Part shown: positions 622 to 10,441 of the stretch, piece after piece | How the letters are laid out: the number at the start of each line of letters is the position of its first letter | Numbering within the stretch: position 1 is the stretch's first letter | The notes under the pieces: generated by a model | Seen by the model: only the letters and a program-made list of their open reading frames with translations | Database searches by the model: none | What the model was told of the DNA's origin: nothing | Assembly: GCA_012516935.1 (NCBI GenBank) | Contig: JAAYVZ010000004.1 | Coordinates: 1-34,335 of the forward strand | Direction: 5' to 3' | Length of the DNA stretch: 34,335 nt | Source of the DNA: Holophagae bacterium | GTDB lineage: Bacteria; Acidobacteriota; Thermoanaerobaculia; Thermoanaerobaculales; Thermoanaerobaculaceae | Position numbers and translations under genes: made by a program

Positions 622-3600
622 TCAGAGGTCCTTCCTTCTTCCGCCCAGCGCTCCGGGCTCGAGAAGCTTCTGGATCTCGGTGTCGAGCGCACGCTGCATC
701 CCGCGATCGAGATGGCGGGTGAGCGCATCGTGCGAGACCGTGGGGGTGATCACGGCCAGGACCCGCTCGATCTCGACGGTGTGATCCTTGCGGTTGGCAG
801 GATGGGCGCGCGCGAGGCCGAGCAGCTCGAGCGCCCGCGTGCTCGCGCCGCGCCGGTGCAGGACCTCGGCAGCACTGATGAGGGCAGGCAAGGCAGTGGC
901 CACCGAGCCGCCCCGTTCGTAGTGCTGCAAGACCTCGCGGAGGGTGGCCTCCGCTTCGTCCAGGAGCCCCGCCGCCGCGTGCGTGTACGCGAGGTTTCCC
1001 AGCAGCAGGCCCACCAGATGATCGGCCCCGATCTCCCGGGCGATGACCAGAGCGTCTGCATAGAGCTGGCGCGCCGGCACAAGCTCTCCCGTAACCCGAA
1101 AGGTCTCGCCGATGACCGTGAGCACGTAGGCCTCGCCCCGCCGGTTGCCGCTCTCCCGGCAGAGCGCGAGCGCCTCCTCGTAGTGTGCGCGCGCAGCGGC
1201 GAACGCCCCCTGGGCTTCGCGCACGATACCGAGGCCGGTCGCCGCCTCCTCCACGAGGCCGACATCCCCCGCTACTCGCGCCGACGCGAGCACCTCGCCG
1301 AACAGACCCTCGGCGCGCCCGAGATCGCCGCGGAAGTACGCCGCCATGCCGAGCTGATTGGTGGCGGTCCGCTCGTTGGCACTGTCGCCGACCTCGCGAG
1401 CCATCGTGCGTGCGGCCTCGAACAGCGCCTCGGCGTCGGCATGCTGGCCCTTTTCCATGGCGACGCGACCTCGGAGCACCCGGCACATGGCGCCGGCCGA
1501 GCTGGTCCCGACCCGGGCGATCGCCTCGTCCAGCCGCGCGCGGGCCTCGTCGTACCGCCCCTGGTAGTAGGCACAGGCCCCCAACTGGGCCATGGCCAGG
1601 CTGTGCTTCTCGCCTCCCGGATCTTCGCTCTGGAGCACGGACTCCAGATCCTCCCTGGCCCGCTCATACCGCCCCATGCGGATGCGCAGGGTCCCCCGCG
1701 CCACGAGCAGATCGGCAGCCAGCTCGGGCCGTTGTCGGTGAAAGGCATCGATCGCTTGGGTGATGAGGGTCTCGGCGCCGTGGAGCCAGCCGCGGGCCTG
1801 AGCGTAAAGCACCACACAGTCCAGGTAGTTGGCTATCACCTCCGGCTGCCCCGCCGTGAGCGCCCACTGCCACGCTGCCTGGAGGTTGGATAGCTCTGCC
1901 GCCACCTCGTCGAGCAGCCGGCAGCCTCCATCGCGCCCCCAGGTTCCGCGAGACCCTCGTAGCCGGCGGGCGAAGAACTCGGCGTGCGCGCGGCGGGCGC
2001 GCTGGTGCTCAGCCGGCGCTCGCTCCAGCTCCTCGCCGGCGAAGCACCGCAGGACCTCGTGGATGGAATAGCGCCCCGTGGCTTCGAAGCGCACGAAGGA
2101 GCTGTCCACGAGGCGGCGCAGGCTCGCCGGTGACGCACCGGCCACCACCTCGGCGGCTTCCCGCGAGAACCCTCCAACGAACACCGAGAGAACGGCCAGC
2201 ACCGCGTGGTCCGTGGCGTCCAGACGCGACCACGAGGACTCGAAGACGGCCCGCAGCTCGCTTCCGGACTCGCCCAGAAACCCCGGATGGCGCCGGATCT
2301 CGTCGACGATCTGATGGGGGGACAACGAACCGATCCAGCCGGCGGCCAGCTCGATGGCAAGCGGAAAACCCTCCACGGCATGGCAGAGCTTGGCGATATC
2401 GCTCAGATCGCGCGGGGTGGGGGAAAACGACGCTCGCACCCGCCGCGCGCTCTCTAGGAACAACTGGCAGGCGGGGCTGCGCTGGACACCACGGCGACCC
2501 GGCGGCGGCACCCCCAGCCCGGAGATCTCGATCGTCCATGCGCCCTCCAGTGGCAGCCGCACCCGGCTCGTGACGAGCATCGAGAGCAGTGGTGCTGCGG
2601 CCAGAAGCTCGGCCAAAACCCCGGTCTGGCTCAGGCTGTGCTCAAAGCCGTCGAGGATGAGCAGCGTCTTTTGGGGACGCAGGAAATCGACGAGCCGTTG
2701 CTCCGGGTCCAGCTCTCCCGACGCTGCCTGCGTGCCGGCGAAAAGAGCTTTGGCCACCGCCTCGTGAAGGCCTCCCCCTCTGTCTTCATCCTGCGGTGCC
2801 ACGAACCACACTCCGTCGTAGCGCCCACCACCCGCCCCGGCGACAGCCACTCGCCGGAGCCCGACCTGAATCGCCAGCCGTGTCTTGCCGATGCCCCCGG
2901 GCCCGAGCAGGCAGATCAACCGGCAGTCCGGGGTGTCGAGGAGCTGCTCGAGGGTCGCAATCTCGCTCTCGCGGCCATAAAAAGGCGTGATCTGAGCCGG
3001 CAGGTTGTGGCGGACGAGCGCCGCGCCCGGAGGCTGACCTGCGCCAGCCGCCCCCCGCAAGCTGGCTGCCAGCCGGGAGGTCTGGGTGGCCGGCGACGTC
3101 TGGAGCTCGGCGGCAAGAATCCGCCGGCACTGCTCGAACTGAGCCAGAGCGGCAGGTAGATCACCAGCCGAAGCGAGGATCTCCATCACGGCTCGATGGG
3201 CCTCCTCCCGCCACGGATCGAGCGCCACCAGCTCGCGCGCTCTCACCAGTGCCACCTCGAGCTCCCCGGCCTGACGGTGCTGGGCAACCAAAGCGCGAAG
3301 CACTTCGACCGCCGCGGCGCGCAACCGCTCGCGCTCGATCTGGAGCCACTCCTCGAACTCGGGAACATCGCCGATGAGGGTGCCATCGAGCAGCTCGCCA
3401 CGCCACAGGGGCGTGACGATGCGAAAACCGTCGCGGCCCGGAGCGGCGGCGGTCCGCAGCGCCTCGCGCGCCGCCAGCAGCTCGAGCGCGTCCACGACCA
3501 CATGGTCGGAGGCAGCAAACGTGACGCGACTTCGACTGGCCTGCACCACACTGGCGCCGGCGGCGGCAAAGGTGCGCCGAAGATCCCACAGCGCGTGGCG

Positions 3601-3816
3601 GAGGTTGCGAGCCGCGCGAACGTCGGGCAGGTCGGGCCAGAGCAGGCGTTGCAGCTTGCCCCGCACGTGCTCGCCCGGCGCCAGCGCCAGGTAGGCGAGC
3701 AAAGCTCCTGTCTTGGCGGACTCGAGATAGAGCGCTCCGCTCGGCCCCTGAATCTGCAGCCCGCCGAGGAGGCGCACCGCCACACACCCTGGAGAGCCTG
3801 ACAGCGACGCTTCCAT
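622..3816 (-). CDS. SARP-type transcriptional regulator with BTAD, STAND (NB-ARC-like) ATPase and TPR domains
   Basis: This is a 1064-residue AfsR/SARP-like regulator. Residues ~10-100 form the OmpR-like winged helix (VRLLGGLQI start, DVRAARNLRHALWDLRR near its end). Residues ~105-255 are the bacterial transcriptional activation domain with repeated helix pairs. A STAND ATPase follows, with Walker A GPGGIGKT at ~305-312 and Walker B LLILDGFEH around residue 389; the downstream GFPLAIELAAGW segment is typical of the AP-ATPase helical region. From ~600 to ~1040 there are tetratricopeptide-like helices (AYYQGRYDEARARLDEA, AYFRGDLGRAEGLFGEV). ATG at 3816 is chosen because a G-rich ribosome-binding site (GGGGG) precedes it. 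The upstream in-frame start at 3870 would lie in the promoter. The gene is divergent from the RHS gene and probably controls it, possibly also itself: its likely -35 (TTGAGG) overlaps the direct repeat at 3865-3872. The STAND/TPR part suggests that a ligand or partner switches it. The ligand is unknown. Confidence 0.88.
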   Translation of the reverse strand: MEASLSGSPGCVAVRLLGGLQIQGPSGALYLESAKTGALLAYLALAPGEHVRGKLQRLLWPDLPDVRAARNLRHALWDLRRTFAAAGASVVQASRSRVTFAASDHVVVDALELLAAREALRTAAAPGRDGFRIVTPLWRGELLDGTLIGDVPEFEEWLQIERERLRAAAVEVLRALVAQHRQAGELEVALVRARELVALDPWREEAHRAVMEILASAGDLPAALAQFEQCRRILAAELQTSPATQTSRLAASLRGAAGAGQPPGAALVRHNLPAQITPFYGRESEIATLEQLLDTPDCRLICLLGPGGIGKTRLAIQVGLRRVAVAGAGGGRYDGVWFVAPQDEDRGGGLHEAVAKALFAGTQAASGELDPEQRLVDFLRPQKTLLILDGFEHSLSQTGVLAELLAAAPLLSMLVTSRVRLPLEGAWTIEISGLGVPPPGRRGVQRSPACQLFLESARRVRASFSPTPRDLSDIAKLCHAVEGFPLAIELAAGWIGSLSPHQIVDEIRRHPGFLGESGSELRAVFESSWSRLDATDHAVLAVLSVFVGGFSREAAEVVAGASPASLRRLVDSSFVRFEATGRYSIHEVLRCFAGEELERAPAEHQRARRAHAEFFARRLRGSRGTWGRDGGCRLLDEVAAELSNLQAAWQWALTAGQPEVIANYLDCVVLYAQARGWLHGAETLITQAIDAFHRQRPELAADLLVARGTLRIRMGRYERAREDLESVLQSEDPGGEKHSLAMAQLGACAYYQGRYDEARARLDEAIARVGTSSAGAMCRVLRGRVAMEKGQHADAEALFEAARTMAREVGDSANERTATNQLGMAAYFRGDLGRAEGLFGEVLASARVAGDVGLVEEAATGLGIVREAQGAFAAARAHYEEALALCRESGNRRGEAYVLTVIGETFRVTGELVPARQLYADALVIAREIGADHLVGLLLGNLAYTHAAAGLLDEAEATLREVLQHYERGGSVATALPALISAAEVLHRRGASTRALELLGLARAHPANRKDHTVEIERVLAVITPTVSHDALTRHLDRGMQRALDTEIQKLLEPGALGGRRKDL

Positions 3817-3840: not shown

Positions 3841-3870
3841 ATCGTACCGCACTGTGCGCCGCTTCCTCAA
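3841..3870 (-). promoter_or_regulatory. Predicted promoter of the SARP regulator gene
   Basis: On the minus strand TTGAGG (3865-3870) and TACGAT (3841-3846) are separated by 18 bp. Transcription would begin near 3834, about 18 nt before the ATG at 3816. The -35 hexamer lies inside the first of two direct repeats, so a protein bound there would occlude it, which would fit autoregulation. This is a consensus match only. Confidence 0.5.
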
Positions 3871-3883
3871 CGCAACCTCAACG
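3865..3883 (+). promoter_or_regulatory. Candidate SARP operator: two 8 bp direct repeats with 11 bp period
   Basis: CCTCAACG occurs at 3865-3872 and again, identical, at 3876-3883. The period is 11 bp, one helical turn. SARP activators of Streptomyces bind heptamer direct repeats spaced this way, with the last repeat about 8 bp before the -10 box. Here 9 bp separate the second repeat from TACGCT (3893-3898), a plausible -10 for the RHS gene, and no good -35 is present, as expected for a SARP-dependent promoter. The adjacent divergent gene encodes a SARP. Confidence 0.55.
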
Positions 3884-3892
3884 GTGCCCCGC

Positions 3893-3898
3893 TACGCT
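3893..3898 (+). promoter_or_regulatory. Predicted -10 element of the RHS gene
   Basis: TACGCT is followed by about 35 nt to the GTG start at 3934, giving a leader of roughly 29 nt that contains the Shine-Dalgarno sequence GGGAGGTGG at 3922-3930. The -35 position holds no consensus hexamer and falls on the second direct repeat. Confidence 0.4.
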
Positions 3899-3933
3899 TG
3901 CCAACGCGCACCCGAGCGCGAGGGAGGTGGCTC

Positions 3934-6900
3934 GTGACCAACCGTGTCCGGTTTCTCTTCCCACTCCTCCTGCTGGTGGCCCTCGTCTTCAACCCTGCCT
4001 GGGCCGCCGCCACCGCGATCTCGCTGCAGGTCCCGGGAGGGGCCGTCAACGGCGAGATCATCAAGGTGAAGGTCCTGATCGATGGCGGCAGCGAGGGGAT
4101 CAGCTTCGAGACCGAGGGTCTCCAGTACGTACGGGGGTACTTCGATCACTGCGGCTTCTGCGGCAAGCCCTGCCTGGTCAACGACACCATCCAGGCGTGC
4201 CCCAGCGCTCCGGACGGCTGCTGCTTCAGCCTCTACTGTCTGGGCTGCTCGTATAGCTCCGGGCACGAGTTCTCCGACCGCTGGTACGGGGGGCCCACGG
4301 TGGAGTACCGGGTCAATGCGTGCCTCGGCCCCAACCCCACGAGAGCGCGGATTCGCGGCCGGTGGTTGGGCGGCAGCCACGAGGGGCCGTACTACACCCC
4401 CTGGTACGAGATCGCCGTCGGCAACCCGATCGTTGCCTCTTTCGACTACCTGCCCACCGACCCGCTCTGCGCCGGCGACCCGATCCGCTTCGAGAACACG
4501 AGCTGCGGCGGTACCGACTGGCACTGGGACTTCGGTGACGGAGAGACCGCCGAGGGCAGAGTCGTGGTACACACCTTCACCGACCCCGGCAGCTACCCGG
4601 TGACGCTCACGGTGACATCCTCCTCCGGGATCGATACCGAGACCCGCACGCTCAACCTCCGTGGCGACTGCGCGACCATCCGGGGAACGGTGACGGACAG
4701 CGTCGATGGCCACCCGCTGCCGGGAGCGGTTGTCGAGCTCTCGCGCGCCGGCTGGAAGAAATTGGCTTTGGCCTTCCAGGGCGGCCAGTACCTGACCCGG
4801 GTCGCGCCCGACTACACCTACGTCCTGGTCGGCAGCTACCGCGGCTACTTCGACTCCGCTCCCGGCAGCGCCTCCCCCGGCCCCAACGAGACCGTCACTG
4901 TGGACCTGAGCCTCGCTCCCGAGCCCGAGGAGTGGAACCACCCCGATCTCACCGCCCTGGCCAACCTGGGGCGCCAGTACGACGCGATCGCCGATCCGGT
5001 CAACCCGTTCGTCGGCAACTTCTTCTTCAACCGCACGCTGTTCGGCTTCCCGGGCCGGATGGGCCTGGATCTGGCGTTCGCCGTGAGCTACAACTCGCAT
5101 CTCGCCGGCGAGGACGGCCCCCTCGGTTTCGGGTGGACGCACAGCCTGGCCATGCGCGTCGAGGAAAACGGCGAGGATCACACCGTGGTCATGCCCGACG
5201 GCAGCCGCCGGTTCTTCAAGAAGAGCGGTACCACCTATACCCCGTTCAACTGCACCACGACCGCGACGCTCGCGGACCGCTCGCCGGACGGCTGGAGCCT
5301 CACCTTCCCCGACGGCCTGGCGTGGCTGTTCGACGCGTCCGGCAGGCTGACGAAGATCACCAACCCGCGCAACCACTCGATCACCCTCACCCACTCCACG
5401 CAGCTTGACCGCATCACCGACTCGATGGGCCGGCAGATCGATCTCACCTGGGCCGGCGGGCGCATCACCGCCATCACGACGCCGGCCACGGGCGGGCCGA
5501 CCGCGCAGCTCGCATACGACGGCAACGGTAATCTCACCTCTCTCACCGATGCCCGCGGCCACGCCTGGACGTTCACCTACGACGCCCAGCACCGCCTGCG
5601 CACCGAGACCGACCGCCGCGGCATCGTGGTGCTGACCAACACCTACGGCGGTGACGGCCGCATCGCATCCCAGGCCGACGCCGCCGGCCAGCTCACTACC
5701 TTCGTGGCCACCCCTCTCGCCGGGAATCGTCTGCAGGTCGTGGTCACGCCCCCCTCGGGCCACGCGATCACCCAGGTCTACGACGCCAACGGGCAGCTCC
5801 TGCGGGTCACCGACGGCGAGGGCCACAGCGCGACGTTCGGCTGGGACGCCCACGGCAACCTCGCCGCCGCCACCGACAAGCTGGGGCACATGGTGGCGTT
5901 CGAGAACGACGCCCAGGGAAACCTCGTCTCGACCACCGACCGGATCGGCGCCACCACCACGGTCACCTACAACGGCCTCGGCCAGCCGACCGAGATCAAA
6001 GGCCCGACCGGCAGGTCCTGGTTCACCTACTTCGCCAACGGCAACCCGCGCGCCCTCTGGCTGCTGGAGGTCCCCCTCGCCGGTCTGGGCTACGACGGCC
6101 AGAACCAGCTCACCGCCGTGGATCACAACGGGCGCACCGTGAGATACGAGTACAACGCCCAAGGCATGCGCACCAGCATCCAGGACCCGACCGGCAAGGC
6201 GTTCCTCCTCGCGTACGACGCCGCGGGCCGGCCCACGCAGGTCACCCTTCCAGATGGGCTCGGCAACTTCCAGTACACCTGGGATCCCGGCAGCAACCTC
6301 ACCAGCCTCACCAACCCGGCGGGGCACCAGACTACCTTCGCCTACGACGCTGAGAACAACATCACCAGCCGCACCTTCGTGCCCACCAACGCGACCGCGG
6401 CGCTCACCTACGACGCCCTGGGCAGGGTGCACACCGAGACCGACGCCCTGGGAGGGGTCACGACCTACGCCTACGACGCCGACTCCAACGTCGTGGCGGT
6501 CACCGACGCCGATGGCGTCACCACCAACCTCGCCTACGACCGCCGCAACCTGCTGCGCACGGTCACATATCCCAGCGGCAACCAGGAGACGATCAGCCGC
6601 GACGCCAACGGCCGGGAGACCGCGCTCACCAACGGCTTGGGGCATACCTGGCAGGCCGCTTTCGATGCCGAGGGCCGCCCCACCGAGCTGCGCAATCCGC
6701 TGGGAGCGGTGACCAAGCTGGCGCGCGGCCCGGACAGCCGCGACCTCACCATGATCAACGCACTGGGGGAAAAGGACCGGCTGGCTTTCAGCGGGCTCGG
6801 GGAGCCCACCGCCGTCACCGCCGCCAACGGCGACGGGATCAGCGCGCAGTACGACCACTATGGAAGCGTCTCCCGCCTCGTCGATGCCCGCGGCAGCGAG

Positions 6901-8985
6901 TGGCGTTTCGCCTACGACCTGGCGGGCCGGGTGACTGCCGTAACCGGAGCGGACGGGGCGACCGAGCGCTACGCCTACGACGCGCTGGGACGCCTGGTCA
7001 CCCTGACCCGGCCATCGGGGGAGGAGGTGGCTTACCAGTACACCCCCGACGGCCGCCTCAGTCGCATCACGCTGCCCGGCGGCGCCCAGGTCGACTTCGG
7101 GTACGCCTACAGCGCGGCCGGCCTCGTGGTCACGGTCACCGAACCTCTGGGGGTCTCCACGTACACCTACGACAAGCTGGATCGCCTGATCAACCGGACC
7201 GACGCCCAGGGCAACACCGTCAGGTTCTCCTACACCCCAGCCGGGCGGGTGGCCTCGGTCACCTACCCCGGCAACCGCCAGCTCGTCTACACCTACGACG
7301 GCGCCGGGAGGGTGCAACGCCTCACCGACTGGACGGGTAAGGTCACGACGTTCCAGTACGATGGCGTGGACCGGCTGGCCCGCGTCGACCTCCCCAACGG
7401 CACCGCCACGGTCTACGCCTACGACCCGGTCGGCCGGCTCACCTCGCTCACCCATCGCGGCCCCGGCGGCTCGACCCTGCTTTCGTACACCATCGCCCGC
7501 GATGCGGTCGGCCGCGTGACCGCGATGACCACGACCGGCACCCTGACCCCGGCTTTCGGCGACGCCGACCGTGAGCGCAGCGTCGACTCCGCCAACCGCC
7601 TGCTCTTCGAGAAGGCCGGAGCCGAGCTGGCCACCTTCGCCTTCGACGCCGACGGCCGGCAGGTCGAGCGCCGCCTGGGGGCGGAGGTCACCACCTACAG
7701 CTACGACCCCCACGGCAACCTCTCCGGCGTCACCGGCGGCGGCCGCGCGACCACCTACGTGCGGGATGTCGACGGCTCCTGCCTGCGGACGGTGACGAAC
7801 GGGGTCGAGACGCGCTATCTGCGCGACGGCAACGAGCTGTGGGCCACGCTCGACGCCGCCAACACCCCGACCCGCTTCTTCATCGGCACCGGCACGATCC
7901 TGTACACGCTCGACCCCGCCGGCACCGCCCGCGTCCTGCACACGGATCCGCAGGGCAACGTCGTGGGGGTCAGCGACGGGAGCGGCGCGCTCGTCGCCCG
8001 CTTCGCCTACGACCCGTACGGCCGCACCGTCGCCGCCGAGGGGCAGAGCGAGCTGGGCTGGCTGGGCAGCCACGGGGTGGTCACCGACGACAACGGCCTC
8101 CTCCACACGGGCGTGCGGATGTACGACCCGGCGAGCCGCCGCTTCCTCACCGAGGACCCTCTCGGCGTGCTCGTGGCTTCCAACCTCTACGCGTACACCG
8201 ACGGGGATCCTCTCAACTTCATGGATCCAGCCGGGCTCCAGCCAGCACCGGATATTAGGCTGTGGAACGTAAGGAGGACACTCACTCCAGCTCCTTCATA
8301 CCCCACGCCGCGCATACCGAGCGGCTGGGGGCCCGACATCTTCAAAGCCCACGTCGACTGGATCGAGAAGGGTCTGGAGGTCGGGCGTGACGCGGGAGCA
8401 CTGGTCCCGAGTGAGTCTTGGAAGCTTGGCGAGGTCTATATCACCGAGCAGTCAGCGACCAAGTATTTGAGTAGCCAGGGCCTCGAATATGGCATGAAAG
8501 TTGTTGAGGTGGATTACTATAGGACGTTTGGAACTGCGCCGCTTCGCTCTGGACCTCCGGACAATCTCCTCTTGAACCGAATGAGCAACCAGTGGACTCG
8601 ACAAGGTGTGAAGTCGACGTTCAGCGGCAAGAGCGTGACCGGGCAGCTCGTCAGGGGCATCGAGGGGGGCGCCCAGCGCACCGTGACCGGCAGCGCAGTG
8701 AAAAGCGCGGCCGGCGGCCTGGCGGGGCGGCTCATCACTCCGGACCTACTGCCACTGGTCGGGTGGGAGACGGCCCGCTTCGCCTCCTCGAGCCTGGTGT
8801 ACATCTACAACGAGAACACCGGCCGCTACGAGACGGGCGACGAGGTGGTCGCCAACTCGTTCATCCCCTGGCAGGTCGCGGCCTGGGCGCCGCGGGAGGA
8901 TAGCTCGTTCGAGCTCAAGAAACGGCTGCACAAGATCAAGAGGGATTTCAATGCGGGCCTCAAGCGCAACGCGCCGTCCAAGTGA
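3934..8985 (+). CDS. Secreted PKD/RHS-repeat (YD-repeat) protein with Cys-rich N-terminal region and variable C-terminal tip
   Basis: This is a 1683-residue protein. GTG at 3934 is chosen because GGGAGGTGG stands just before it and because it puts a signal peptide (VRFLFPLLLLVALVF...AWA) at the N-terminus. The TTG at 3898 would overlap the -10 box. Residues ~72-129 contain nine cysteines (CGFCGKPC, GCCFSLYCLGC). A PKD domain follows at ~165-244 (WHWDFGDGE) and a carboxypeptidase-regulatory-like β-sandwich at ~247-327. A DUF6531-like RHS entry domain lies at ~349-440 (NPFVGNFFF, LGFGWTHSL). About 30 YD repeats run to ~1330. The RHS core-associated domain ends with RRFLTEDPLG and NFMDPAGL near residue 1433. 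The last ~250 residues are unrelated to the repeats and match no toxin family I recognise. RHS β-cages often enclose a C-terminal effector. A Sec signal argues against simple type VI delivery. No small immunity gene follows; the next gene begins 10 bp downstream. Confidence 0.9.
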   Translation: MTNRVRFLFPLLLLVALVFNPAWAAATAISLQVPGGAVNGEIIKVKVLIDGGSEGISFETEGLQYVRGYFDHCGFCGKPCLVNDTIQACPSAPDGCCFSLYCLGCSYSSGHEFSDRWYGGPTVEYRVNACLGPNPTRARIRGRWLGGSHEGPYYTPWYEIAVGNPIVASFDYLPTDPLCAGDPIRFENTSCGGTDWHWDFGDGETAEGRVVVHTFTDPGSYPVTLTVTSSSGIDTETRTLNLRGDCATIRGTVTDSVDGHPLPGAVVELSRAGWKKLALAFQGGQYLTRVAPDYTYVLVGSYRGYFDSAPGSASPGPNETVTVDLSLAPEPEEWNHPDLTALANLGRQYDAIADPVNPFVGNFFFNRTLFGFPGRMGLDLAFAVSYNSHLAGEDGPLGFGWTHSLAMRVEENGEDHTVVMPDGSRRFFKKSGTTYTPFNCTTTATLADRSPDGWSLTFPDGLAWLFDASGRLTKITNPRNHSITLTHSTQLDRITDSMGRQIDLTWAGGRITAITTPATGGPTAQLAYDGNGNLTSLTDARGHAWTFTYDAQHRLRTETDRRGIVVLTNTYGGDGRIASQADAAGQLTTFVATPLAGNRLQVVVTPPSGHAITQVYDANGQLLRVTDGEGHSATFGWDAHGNLAAATDKLGHMVAFENDAQGNLVSTTDRIGATTTVTYNGLGQPTEIKGPTGRSWFTYFANGNPRALWLLEVPLAGLGYDGQNQLTAVDHNGRTVRYEYNAQGMRTSIQDPTGKAFLLAYDAAGRPTQVTLPDGLGNFQYTWDPGSNLTSLTNPAGHQTTFAYDAENNITSRTFVPTNATAALTYDALGRVHTETDALGGVTTYAYDADSNVVAVTDADGVTTNLAYDRRNLLRTVTYPSGNQETISRDANGRETALTNGLGHTWQAAFDAEGRPTELRNPLGAVTKLARGPDSRDLTMINALGEKDRLAFSGLGEPTAVTAANGDGISAQYDHYGSVSRLVDARGSEWRFAYDLAGRVTAVTGADGATERYAYDALGRLVTLTRPSGEEVAYQYTPDGRLSRITLPGGAQVDFGYAYSAAGLVVTVTEPLGVSTYTYDKLDRLINRTDAQGNTVRFSYTPAGRVASVTYPGNRQLVYTYDGAGRVQRLTDWTGKVTTFQYDGVDRLARVDLPNGTATVYAYDPVGRLTSLTHRGPGGSTLLSYTIARDAVGRVTAMTTTGTLTPAFGDADRERSVDSANRLLFEKAGAELATFAFDADGRQVERRLGAEVTTYSYDPHGNLSGVTGGGRATTYVRDVDGSCLRTVTNGVETRYLRDGNELWATLDAANTPTRFFIGTGTILYTLDPAGTARVLHTDPQGNVVGVSDGSGALVARFAYDPYGRTVAAEGQSELGWLGSHGVVTDDNGLLHTGVRMYDPASRRFLTEDPLGVLVASNLYAYTDGDPLNFMDPAGLQPAPDIRLWNVRRTLTPAPSYPTPRIPSGWGPDIFKAHVDWIEKGLEVGRDAGALVPSESWKLGEVYITEQSATKYLSSQGLEYGMKVVEVDYYRTFGTAPLRSGPPDNLLLNRMSNQWTRQGVKSTFSGKSVTGQLVRGIEGGAQRTVTGSAVKSAAGGLAGRLITPDLLPLVGWETARFASSSLVYIYNENTGRYETGDEVVANSFIPWQVAAWAPREDSSFELKKRLHKIKRDFNAGLKRNAPSK

Positions 8986-8995
8986 GGAGGCTGCC

Positions 8996-10441
8996 ATGAA
9001 CGACACCAGCATTCGCTCCGCCCGGATCCCAGGCGCGGGGGGACTCGGCGCCGCCCGGTGGTGCCTCGCGCTCGCCGCGGTCATCGCACTGCTCCTTCCC
9101 CTCTCGCTGGCCGCCCAGACCACCGTGCAGTACGACACCAAGGGGCGGGTGGTGCGGGTGGATTACGGCGGCGGTCGAGTCATGACGTTCACCTATGATG
9201 CTGCCAACAACCTCGTCGCGGAAACCGCGTCCGCCCCGGGGGAGACTCTCGCCGTGGCGGTGAGCCCCGTCGGGAGCGGCACGGTGCTCGGCGACGGCAT
9301 CGTCTGTCCCTCCGATTGCACCGAAACCTACACGGGGTCCCCATCGGTGGCGCTCACCGCCGTCCCGAATCCCGGCTGGCTGTTCCTGGGGTGGGGAGGG
9401 GCGCTCTCCGGATCGTCGAGCCCGGCCTCGCTGACGATGGCAACCGATGCCGTGGTGGTCGCCTACTTCGGCGCGGACAGCGGCGACACCGACGGTGACG
9501 GCACGCCTGACAGCGCCGAGACCGGCCCCGGTGGGAACGCCTTCGGTTACGACGGCAACGGCGACGGCATCCCCGACTACCAGCAGCCGCACGTCACCTC
9601 GTTGCCCACCTTCGACGGCGCCTCGTACGCCACGCTGGCGGTGGATCCTCCGGCGGTCCTCACCGGAGTTGCCGCGGTCGACAACCCGTCTCCGGGTGAC
9701 AGCCCCGCGGGCGTGGGCTTCCCCTTCGGCTTTTTCGCCTTCACCATCGAGGGCGTGGCCCTCGGGGGGTGGGCGAACCTCGACATGTTCTTCCCGCCCG
9801 CACAGCTCACCTCCTACTGGAAGCACGGCCCCACCCCGGACGACCCGGCACCGCACTGGTATCAGTTCGTCCACTACCACCCGGCGCTGCCCGGGGCGGA
9901 GATCTGGCCTCGCAGCGACGGCGTGCAGGTGCGCCTGTTCCTGCAGGATGGCGCCAAGGGGGATGACATCCCGGACCCCGACGGCATGATCGTGGACCAG
10001 GGTGGTCCTTCCGGGCAGCAAATCACTGCGGCCATCTCCGTGACCCCGACCGCCCTCAGCTTCGGCACCTTGAGGGTAGGCCAGGACGCCGTCCTGTCGG
10101 TGACCGTGCGGTCCACCGGTCAGGGCGCGCTGGGGCTCGGAAGCATCGGTGGCGGCAACCCCCTGGCGGCGCCGTTCTCTATCGCCAACGATGGTTGCTC
10201 CGGCCGCACCCTCCAGCCCGGCCAGAGCTGTGTGCTCGGGGTGCGCTTCGCCCCCACGATCGCCGGCACCTTCAACGACAGCTTCGACATCCCCTCGAAC
10301 GCCGGCACTCCTGTGGTGACGGTGAGCGGGCAAGCAGAGCGGCCCGAGCCGATCCCGGCTCTCGGTGGGGTCAACCTGGCGGTGCTGGCACTGCTGATGA
10401 TCGTGCTCGGAGGGTGGCTCGCCACCCGTCGTGCCTGGTGA
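8996..10441 (+). CDS. Surface protein: YD-repeat start, InlB-like repeat, Ca-binding-like motif, choice-of-anchor U and ASH domains, IPTL-CTERM-like sorting tail
   Basis: This is a 481-residue exported protein. ATG at 8996 has GAGGAGG seven bases upstream and the stop codon of the RHS gene lies only 10 bp away, so the two are probably co-transcribed. A signal peptide (LALAAVIALLLPLSLAAQ) is followed at once by one YD-type unit (VQYDTKGRVVRVDYGGG, FTYDAANNLVAE). Then come an InlB B-repeat-like segment (AVPNPGWLFLGWGG), a DTDGDGTPD aspartate-rich motif with NGDGIPD, a choice-of-anchor U-like domain (~residues 210-330), and an ASPM-SPD-2-Hydin-like β-sandwich (ISVTPTALSFGTLRVGQ...). The end PIPALGG, a hydrophobic helix and LATRRAW fits the IPTL-CTERM plan of motif, membrane helix and basic tail, predicted to be processed at the envelope. 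It may anchor or present the RHS product; that role is inference. Confidence 0.82.
   Translation: MNDTSIRSARIPGAGGLGAARWCLALAAVIALLLPLSLAAQTTVQYDTKGRVVRVDYGGGRVMTFTYDAANNLVAETASAPGETLAVAVSPVGSGTVLGDGIVCPSDCTETYTGSPSVALTAVPNPGWLFLGWGGALSGSSSPASLTMATDAVVVAYFGADSGDTDGDGTPDSAETGPGGNAFGYDGNGDGIPDYQQPHVTSLPTFDGASYATLAVDPPAVLTGVAAVDNPSPGDSPAGVGFPFGFFAFTIEGVALGGWANLDMFFPPAQLTSYWKHGPTPDDPAPHWYQFVHYHPALPGAEIWPRSDGVQVRLFLQDGAKGDDIPDPDGMIVDQGGPSGQQITAAISVTPTALSFGTLRVGQDAVLSVTVRSTGQGALGLGSIGGGNPLAAPFSIANDGCSGRTLQPGQSCVLGVRFAPTIAGTFNDSFDIPSNAGTPVVTVSGQAERPEPIPALGGVNLAVLALLMIVLGGWLATRRAW

Follow-up and report, generated by a model that had tools for sequence, protein, structure and literature searches.

SARP regulators recognise direct repeats placed 11 or 22 bp apart, the 3′ repeat of which lies 8 bp from the -10 (PMC10936776). 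The closest described system to the locus reported here is that of AfsR and its target afsS in Streptomyces coelicolor. AfsR is a large SARP with NOD and TPR parts, and the present regulator displays the same domain order and a recognition helix that aligns to that of AfsR. In both systems two 11-bp direct repeats overlap the -35 position, the distance between the 3′ repeat and the -10 is about 8 bp, and a small-protein gene is the target (here in most relatives). The two systems differ in the letters of the half-sites and in the divergent arrangement with exported surface proteins found here, in other phyla; furthermore, the small protein encountered here matches no family model. PimR (a SARP-LAL regulator) and pimM offer a second comparison, as an operator made up of heptamer repeats with 4-nt spacers serves one dedicated target (PMC5930380), although PimR serves an antibiotic cluster and its main operator consists of three repeats that do not overlap the -35. 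In RHS/polymorphic toxin systems, as at this locus, the RHS core protein is secreted and its C-terminal region is divergent; here, however, RHS proteins are one of several target types of the regulator family.

EmbR of mycobacteria regulates cell-wall genes and acts, in other words, outside antibiotic synthesis. The EmbR of Mycobacterium tuberculosis is comparable to the present regulator as a SARP-fold protein with such a role, but it carries an FHA domain in place of NB-ARC/TPR and does not form a divergent module with a private operator. EmbR has been identified as a structural relative (PMC10936776). In the preliminary description of this DNA, SARPs controlling RHS proteins outside antibiotic clusters were presented as what would be a new use of the family; novelty of any role outside such clusters is too strong a claim given the SARP-type precedent of EmbR.

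Organisation of the regulator/RHS locus

The window, i.e. the whole 34,335-nucleotide stretch of DNA under analysis, is part of a 3.7 Mb genome assembly and carries a regulator gene that is divergent from an RHS operon (Table 1). The regulator has the composition of a large AfsR-like SARP, with an N-terminal OmpR-type winged helix and BTAD followed by a central STAND ATPase and C-terminal TPR (Pfam matches: BTAD 1.1e-18, NB-ARC 4.7e-6 and TPR_12 1.5e-28). NACHT, AAA_16 and MalT-like TPR were also matched in the domain search, and a P-loop (GPGGIGKT) is present at residues 305–312. The solved AfsR structures 8k60, 8jke and 8hvr were retrieved as matches, residues 15–246 aligning to the SARP structure 8hvr with an E value of 0.0024. 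Against the NCBIfam AfsR equivalog model NF053617 the regulator scored 74.4 bits (5e-21), which is far below the cut-off of 1430; it is not AfsR, though its mode of action is probably AfsR-like.

The facing gene encodes an RHS protein with a signal-peptide-like N terminus, PKD, DUF6531, 16 RHS repeats and a Rhs-associated core. Beyond this core neither Pfam nor NCBIfam identified a domain, and neither a toxin domain nor an immunity gene was recognised at the locus. A short similar stretch (LVP....K.GEVY..E), matching no known domain, follows the Rhs core both in the window (8400–8985) and in the RHS protein of the paralogue locus described below (L036:4335–9437, minus strand). In G011, the RHS gene is likewise followed by a gene similar to P0003 in size and start. 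A defence-system reading of the locus was dropped, as PADLOC returned no match except a generic TPR model.

Table 1. Location of the genes and promoter elements of the window, with examples of the small-protein gene in other loci
Feature	Position	Strand	Remarks and basis
AfsR-like STAND-SARP regulator (P0001)	622..3816	-	winged helix + BTAD + NB-ARC/NACHT + TPR; likely ATG start at 3816
Possible -10 (TACGAT) of the regulator's own promoter	3841..3846	-	sequence; similar hexamer only in close relatives
Possible -35 (TTGAGG) of the regulator's own promoter	3865..3870	-	18 bp spacer to TACGAT; overlaps first repeat
Upstream 11-bp direct repeat unit	3867..3877	+	half-site TCAACG at 3867–3872; sequence and layout kept in relatives
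Downstream 11-bp direct repeat unit	3878..3888	+	half-site TCAACG at 3878–3883; sequence and layout kept in relatives
-10 (TACGCT) of the RHS operon	3893..3898	+	sequence; TAnnnT peak in the same offset range in 27/44 promoters
Ribosome-binding-site-like AGGGAGG of the RHS gene	3921..3927	+	sequence
Secreted RHS protein (P0002), 1683 aa	3934..8985	+	likely GTG start at 3934
Operon gene 2 (P0003)	8996..10441	+	one YD repeat, choice-of-anchor U and D domains, membrane-anchor-like C-terminal tail
Small-protein gene	L044:6654-6878	-	one of the examples; about 30 other loci besides these three
Small-protein gene	L069:6674-6877	-	
Small-protein gene	L036:9445-9663	-	

Direct repeats and -10 box in the window

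The sequence CCTCAACG is read at 3865–3872 and again at 3876–3883, 11 bp from start to start, and TACGCT is located 9 bp past the end of the second octamer or hexamer (8 bp past the heptamer TCAACGG). The preliminary description had reported these identical repeats, their period and the distance to TACGCT, as well as TTGAGG and TACGAT with an 18 bp spacer on the minus strand, and direct reading proved it exact on each count. The window, together with the 54-promoter set described below, thereby displays the SARP operator layout given at the outset (PMC10936776). When the 117 bp intergenic region was shuffled, an identical 8-mer at period 11 arose in 0.5% of cases, while an 8-mer repeat combined with TAnnnT at the right distance arose in 0 of 20,000. 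Within the window, TCAACG-N5-TCAACG (≤1 mismatch) occurs once against 0.08 expected. A generic sigma-70 scan identified no promoter in the regulator/RHS intergenic region, a result that fits weak activator-dependent promoters, yet is no proof of them.

A paralogue of the regulator (56% identical) is encoded on contig C142 (locus L036), where it also faces an RHS gene, and the intergenic region of this pair contains TCAACG-N5-TCAACG. The relaxed pattern YCAACG-N5-YCAACG was found six times in the whole genome, and four of these matches lie inside coding-looking open reading frames, so that the two regulator promoters, both at STAND-SARP/RHS pairs, provide the only clear intergenic sites. No wider regulon was thus identified in this genome.

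Conservation of the probable operator layout in relatives

Scanning genome contigs once with an alignment of the regulator yielded 45 loci, mainly from Chloroflexota and some from Acidobacteriota; the close relatives that bear taxon names are Acidobacteriota, one being labelled Thermoanaerobaculaceae. Combining these loci with the window, the paralogue and L040, and removing duplicates and truncated loci, gave 45 upstream regions, 37 of which contain a period-11 repeat at 6/7 identity (shuffle mean 9.1) and 22 at 7/7 (shuffle mean 0.7). On alignment, these regions present two hexamers 11 bp apart, usually followed by TAnnnT nine bp after the second. Beside period 11, a weaker and unexplained excess of 7-mer matches was observed at period 21 (21/45 upstream regions at 6/7).

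In a larger set of 54 promoters beside regulator relatives (Acidobacteriota and Chloroflexota), a period-11 8-mer repeat (≥7/8) was detected in 44, a clear repeat being absent in the other 10; the other periods tried yielded 2–14 promoters, with two at period 10 and four at period 12. TAnnnT was found at offsets 15–20 in 27 of these 44 (background 0.9% per position), and the -10 was poor in several GC-rich Acidobacteriota promoters. A combined repeat-plus--10 score of ≥8.3 was reached by 38 of the 54, compared to a mean of 0.7 and a maximum of three in shuffles, and by 0–3 of the 54 at other lags. Control windows in the same loci passed in 10 of 2338 cases (0.4%) and the opposite strand of the same promoters in five of 54, indicating that the site is oriented with the divergent operon rather than with the regulator.

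Searching by the small protein (described below) instead of the regulator recovered three further Acidobacteriota loci with divergent SARP genes and perfect 11-bp hexamer repeats, their -10 boxes being poor. In Chloroflexota, all three strong small-protein matches passed the repeat-plus--10 rule, as did six of 17 in total; most of the weak matches lack the full signature, and in some of them the SARP gene precedes the small gene on the same strand. The preliminary description had staked its reading on the orthologous promoters, and there the repeats are kept (44/54 at period 11); the conserved layout and the control scores support its proposal that the repeats represent a putative SARP-type operator, placed as an activator of the RHS gene would need.

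Half-site variation and the recognition helix

The half-site hexamer approximates to Y-N-V-A-C-G, often followed by N-T, and its bases 4–6 (the ACG core) are near constant. Bases 1–3 (positions 0–2) differ between loci while agreeing within a pair in 43–44 of 46 cases, a figure that is inflated because hexamer identity formed part of the selection; unbiased evidence is provided by the control scores. Several half-sites may occur in one genome, as in G061 (TCAACG, TTGACG/TTAACG, CACACG, TTCGCG/TTCACG and TGGACG). Half-site distance correlated with recognition-helix distance at r = 0.33, versus 0.11 for the rest of the DNA-binding domain, and a partial Mantel test corrected for the latter, in which related sequences are otherwise treated as exchangeable, gave r = 0.31 (p = 0.0002, 40 regulators). 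The leading helix columns include R70, H74, W77 and D78, the last three of which align, in the window regulator, to AfsR T88, S91 and R92; of these AfsR residues, T88 and R92 contact bases and S91 contacts the backbone (PMC10936776). Some of the top-scoring columns (L31, V98 and A34) lie outside the recognition helix, as is expected if the signal is partly ancestry.

Since the layout is kept across two phyla while the words change with the DNA-reading helix, it is very probable that the AfsR-like STAND-SARP regulator encoded next to the two 11-bp direct repeats uses them as its operator; this regulator is predicted to activate the RHS operon. The repeats might instead be read by another protein, such as a PhoP-like regulator of the OmpR family, the SARP gene being adjacent by location only. 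PhoP-like regulators likewise read 11-bp direct repeats, and PhoP also recognises those of AfsR at afsS (PMC10972967), so that the layout by itself does not identify the reader. However, the half-sites vary between regulator loci, even among the G061 copies, and track the recognition helix of the adjacent regulator, while a global regulator would be expected to have one motif per genome at many sites and only two intergenic sites are present here; a separate reader is thus considered very unlikely.

The regulator-side promoter

Self-repression by the regulator had also been suggested in the preliminary description, and the repeats could even be mainly autoregulatory, with the bound protein blocking the regulator's own promoter. 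In the window TTGAGG lies within the first repeat, 18 bp from TACGAT, and TACCAT is similarly spaced in two close relatives. However, apart from the window and the paralogue, only two close relatives, both Acidobacteriota, share TAC(G/C)AT at 17–20 nt on the regulator side. In Chloroflexota, TATAAT is located at 32–51 nt on this side, where present, without fixed spacing, and it is the -10 of the divergent operon that is conserved instead. Additionally, known SARPs with such a layout are activators (PMC10936776), and a mainly autoregulatory function is scarcely to be expected. Self-repression itself was not supported because the promoter overlap is confined to close relatives and is not kept in Chloroflexota, although as a side effect in this genome it is possible, without support from conservation. 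Finally, that the repeat arose by chance, the intergenic region being short and GC-rich, is of negligible probability: a lone period-11 8-mer repeat is not extremely rare in shuffles, but conservation of the layout in dozens of promoters despite varying letters refutes chance at the family level.

A small-protein gene and exported proteins in the divergent module

Of the 45 upstream regions, 35 carry a gene for a protein of 60–80 aa close to where the divergent stretch begins (one or two matches being weak); the protein has the consensus LLRLWxE..VWRxSLEDPxTGxRxGFxxLExLxxFL. Pfam returned no match for three members and weak single-member matches to DUF2517 (0.002) and YdjO (0.026), and NCBIfam, PHROGs and PADLOC were without match. 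The AlphaFold model (mean pLDDT 86.5) consists of three strands and a helix (beta-beta-beta-alpha); Foldseek identified nothing at E <0.001 (best E 0.21, Cren7), and VIA-align reached Z ≤4.5 (yaiA), values that common arrangements also attain. The Chloroflexota genome G061 holds 13 copies of the small gene (L096, L102, L107, L115, L121–L124 and others), several with differing half-sites. The window locus is without the small gene, the single copy in its genome being at the paralogue; the RHS start codon of the window lies just 50 bp past the operator (3884–3933).

Following the small gene, mostly exported proteins are encoded; by a crude hydropathy measure, the first genes include one with a hydrophobic N terminus in about 19 of the 26 listed loci. 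The target types recognised comprise RHS, LRR-like (assigned by reading the sequence), beta-helix, LVIVD propeller and cohesin-containing proteins and cytochrome c. RHS targets were identified at the window, the paralogue, L044, L046, L040 and L083, and a same-genus relative (L045) carries an LRR-type protein in place of RHS. The RHS/surface operon named as the target in the preliminary description is too narrow for the family, as most relatives face the small protein and other exported proteins. L133:1638-2375 (+) and L134:1434-2186 (+) come from two genomes of a further Acidobacteriota genus, and in both a single open frame contains the small domain together with a hydrophobic exported-looking segment. 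This is a possible fusion, which would hint at action of the small domain with the exported product.

Proposed mode of action and significance

From the computed repeats, their spacing, conservation and orientation, and the variation of the half-sites with the recognition helix, we infer binding, activation and gating by ATP or a signal. By analogy with the structure of AfsR, afsS and polymerase (PMC10936776), two SARP domains would bind next to each other on the repeats, immediately 5′ of the weak TACGCT -10. The pair would stand in for a good -35 and hold or recruit RNA polymerase at this weak -10, by which the secreted RHS gene and the gene following it would be switched on. The NB-ARC/TPR part probably gates this activation in response to a signal, and each family member seems to possess a private operator located beside its gene. 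For the widespread SARP-STAND family of Chloroflexota and Acidobacteriota as a whole, we lean towards the view that private operators have drifted along with the recognition helices of their regulators, so that several copies in one cell function without cross-talk, each regulator being dedicated to one exported-protein locus via the small beta-beta-beta-alpha protein, which usually heads the operon and in one genus seems to be fused to an exported protein.

The core finding of the preliminary description holds and is broader than first stated. In a literature search covering few subscription journals, no paper was found that links SARPs to RHS genes or to Chloroflexota regulators. SARPs and their operators are already known, while the host range, the module and the private operators look new; within a known operator type, the new elements are the private operators and an undescribed small-protein partner. 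The reach of the SARPs, a family of antibiotic activators, and of their operator code thereby widens to take in uncultured members of Acidobacteriota and Chloroflexota as well as exported surface-protein genes, and an undescribed small-protein family is brought out as a companion of SARP-STAND regulators. Furthermore, these natural regulator-operator pairs render the SARP recognition code readable and testable, with G061 constituting a natural test set for operator orthogonality.
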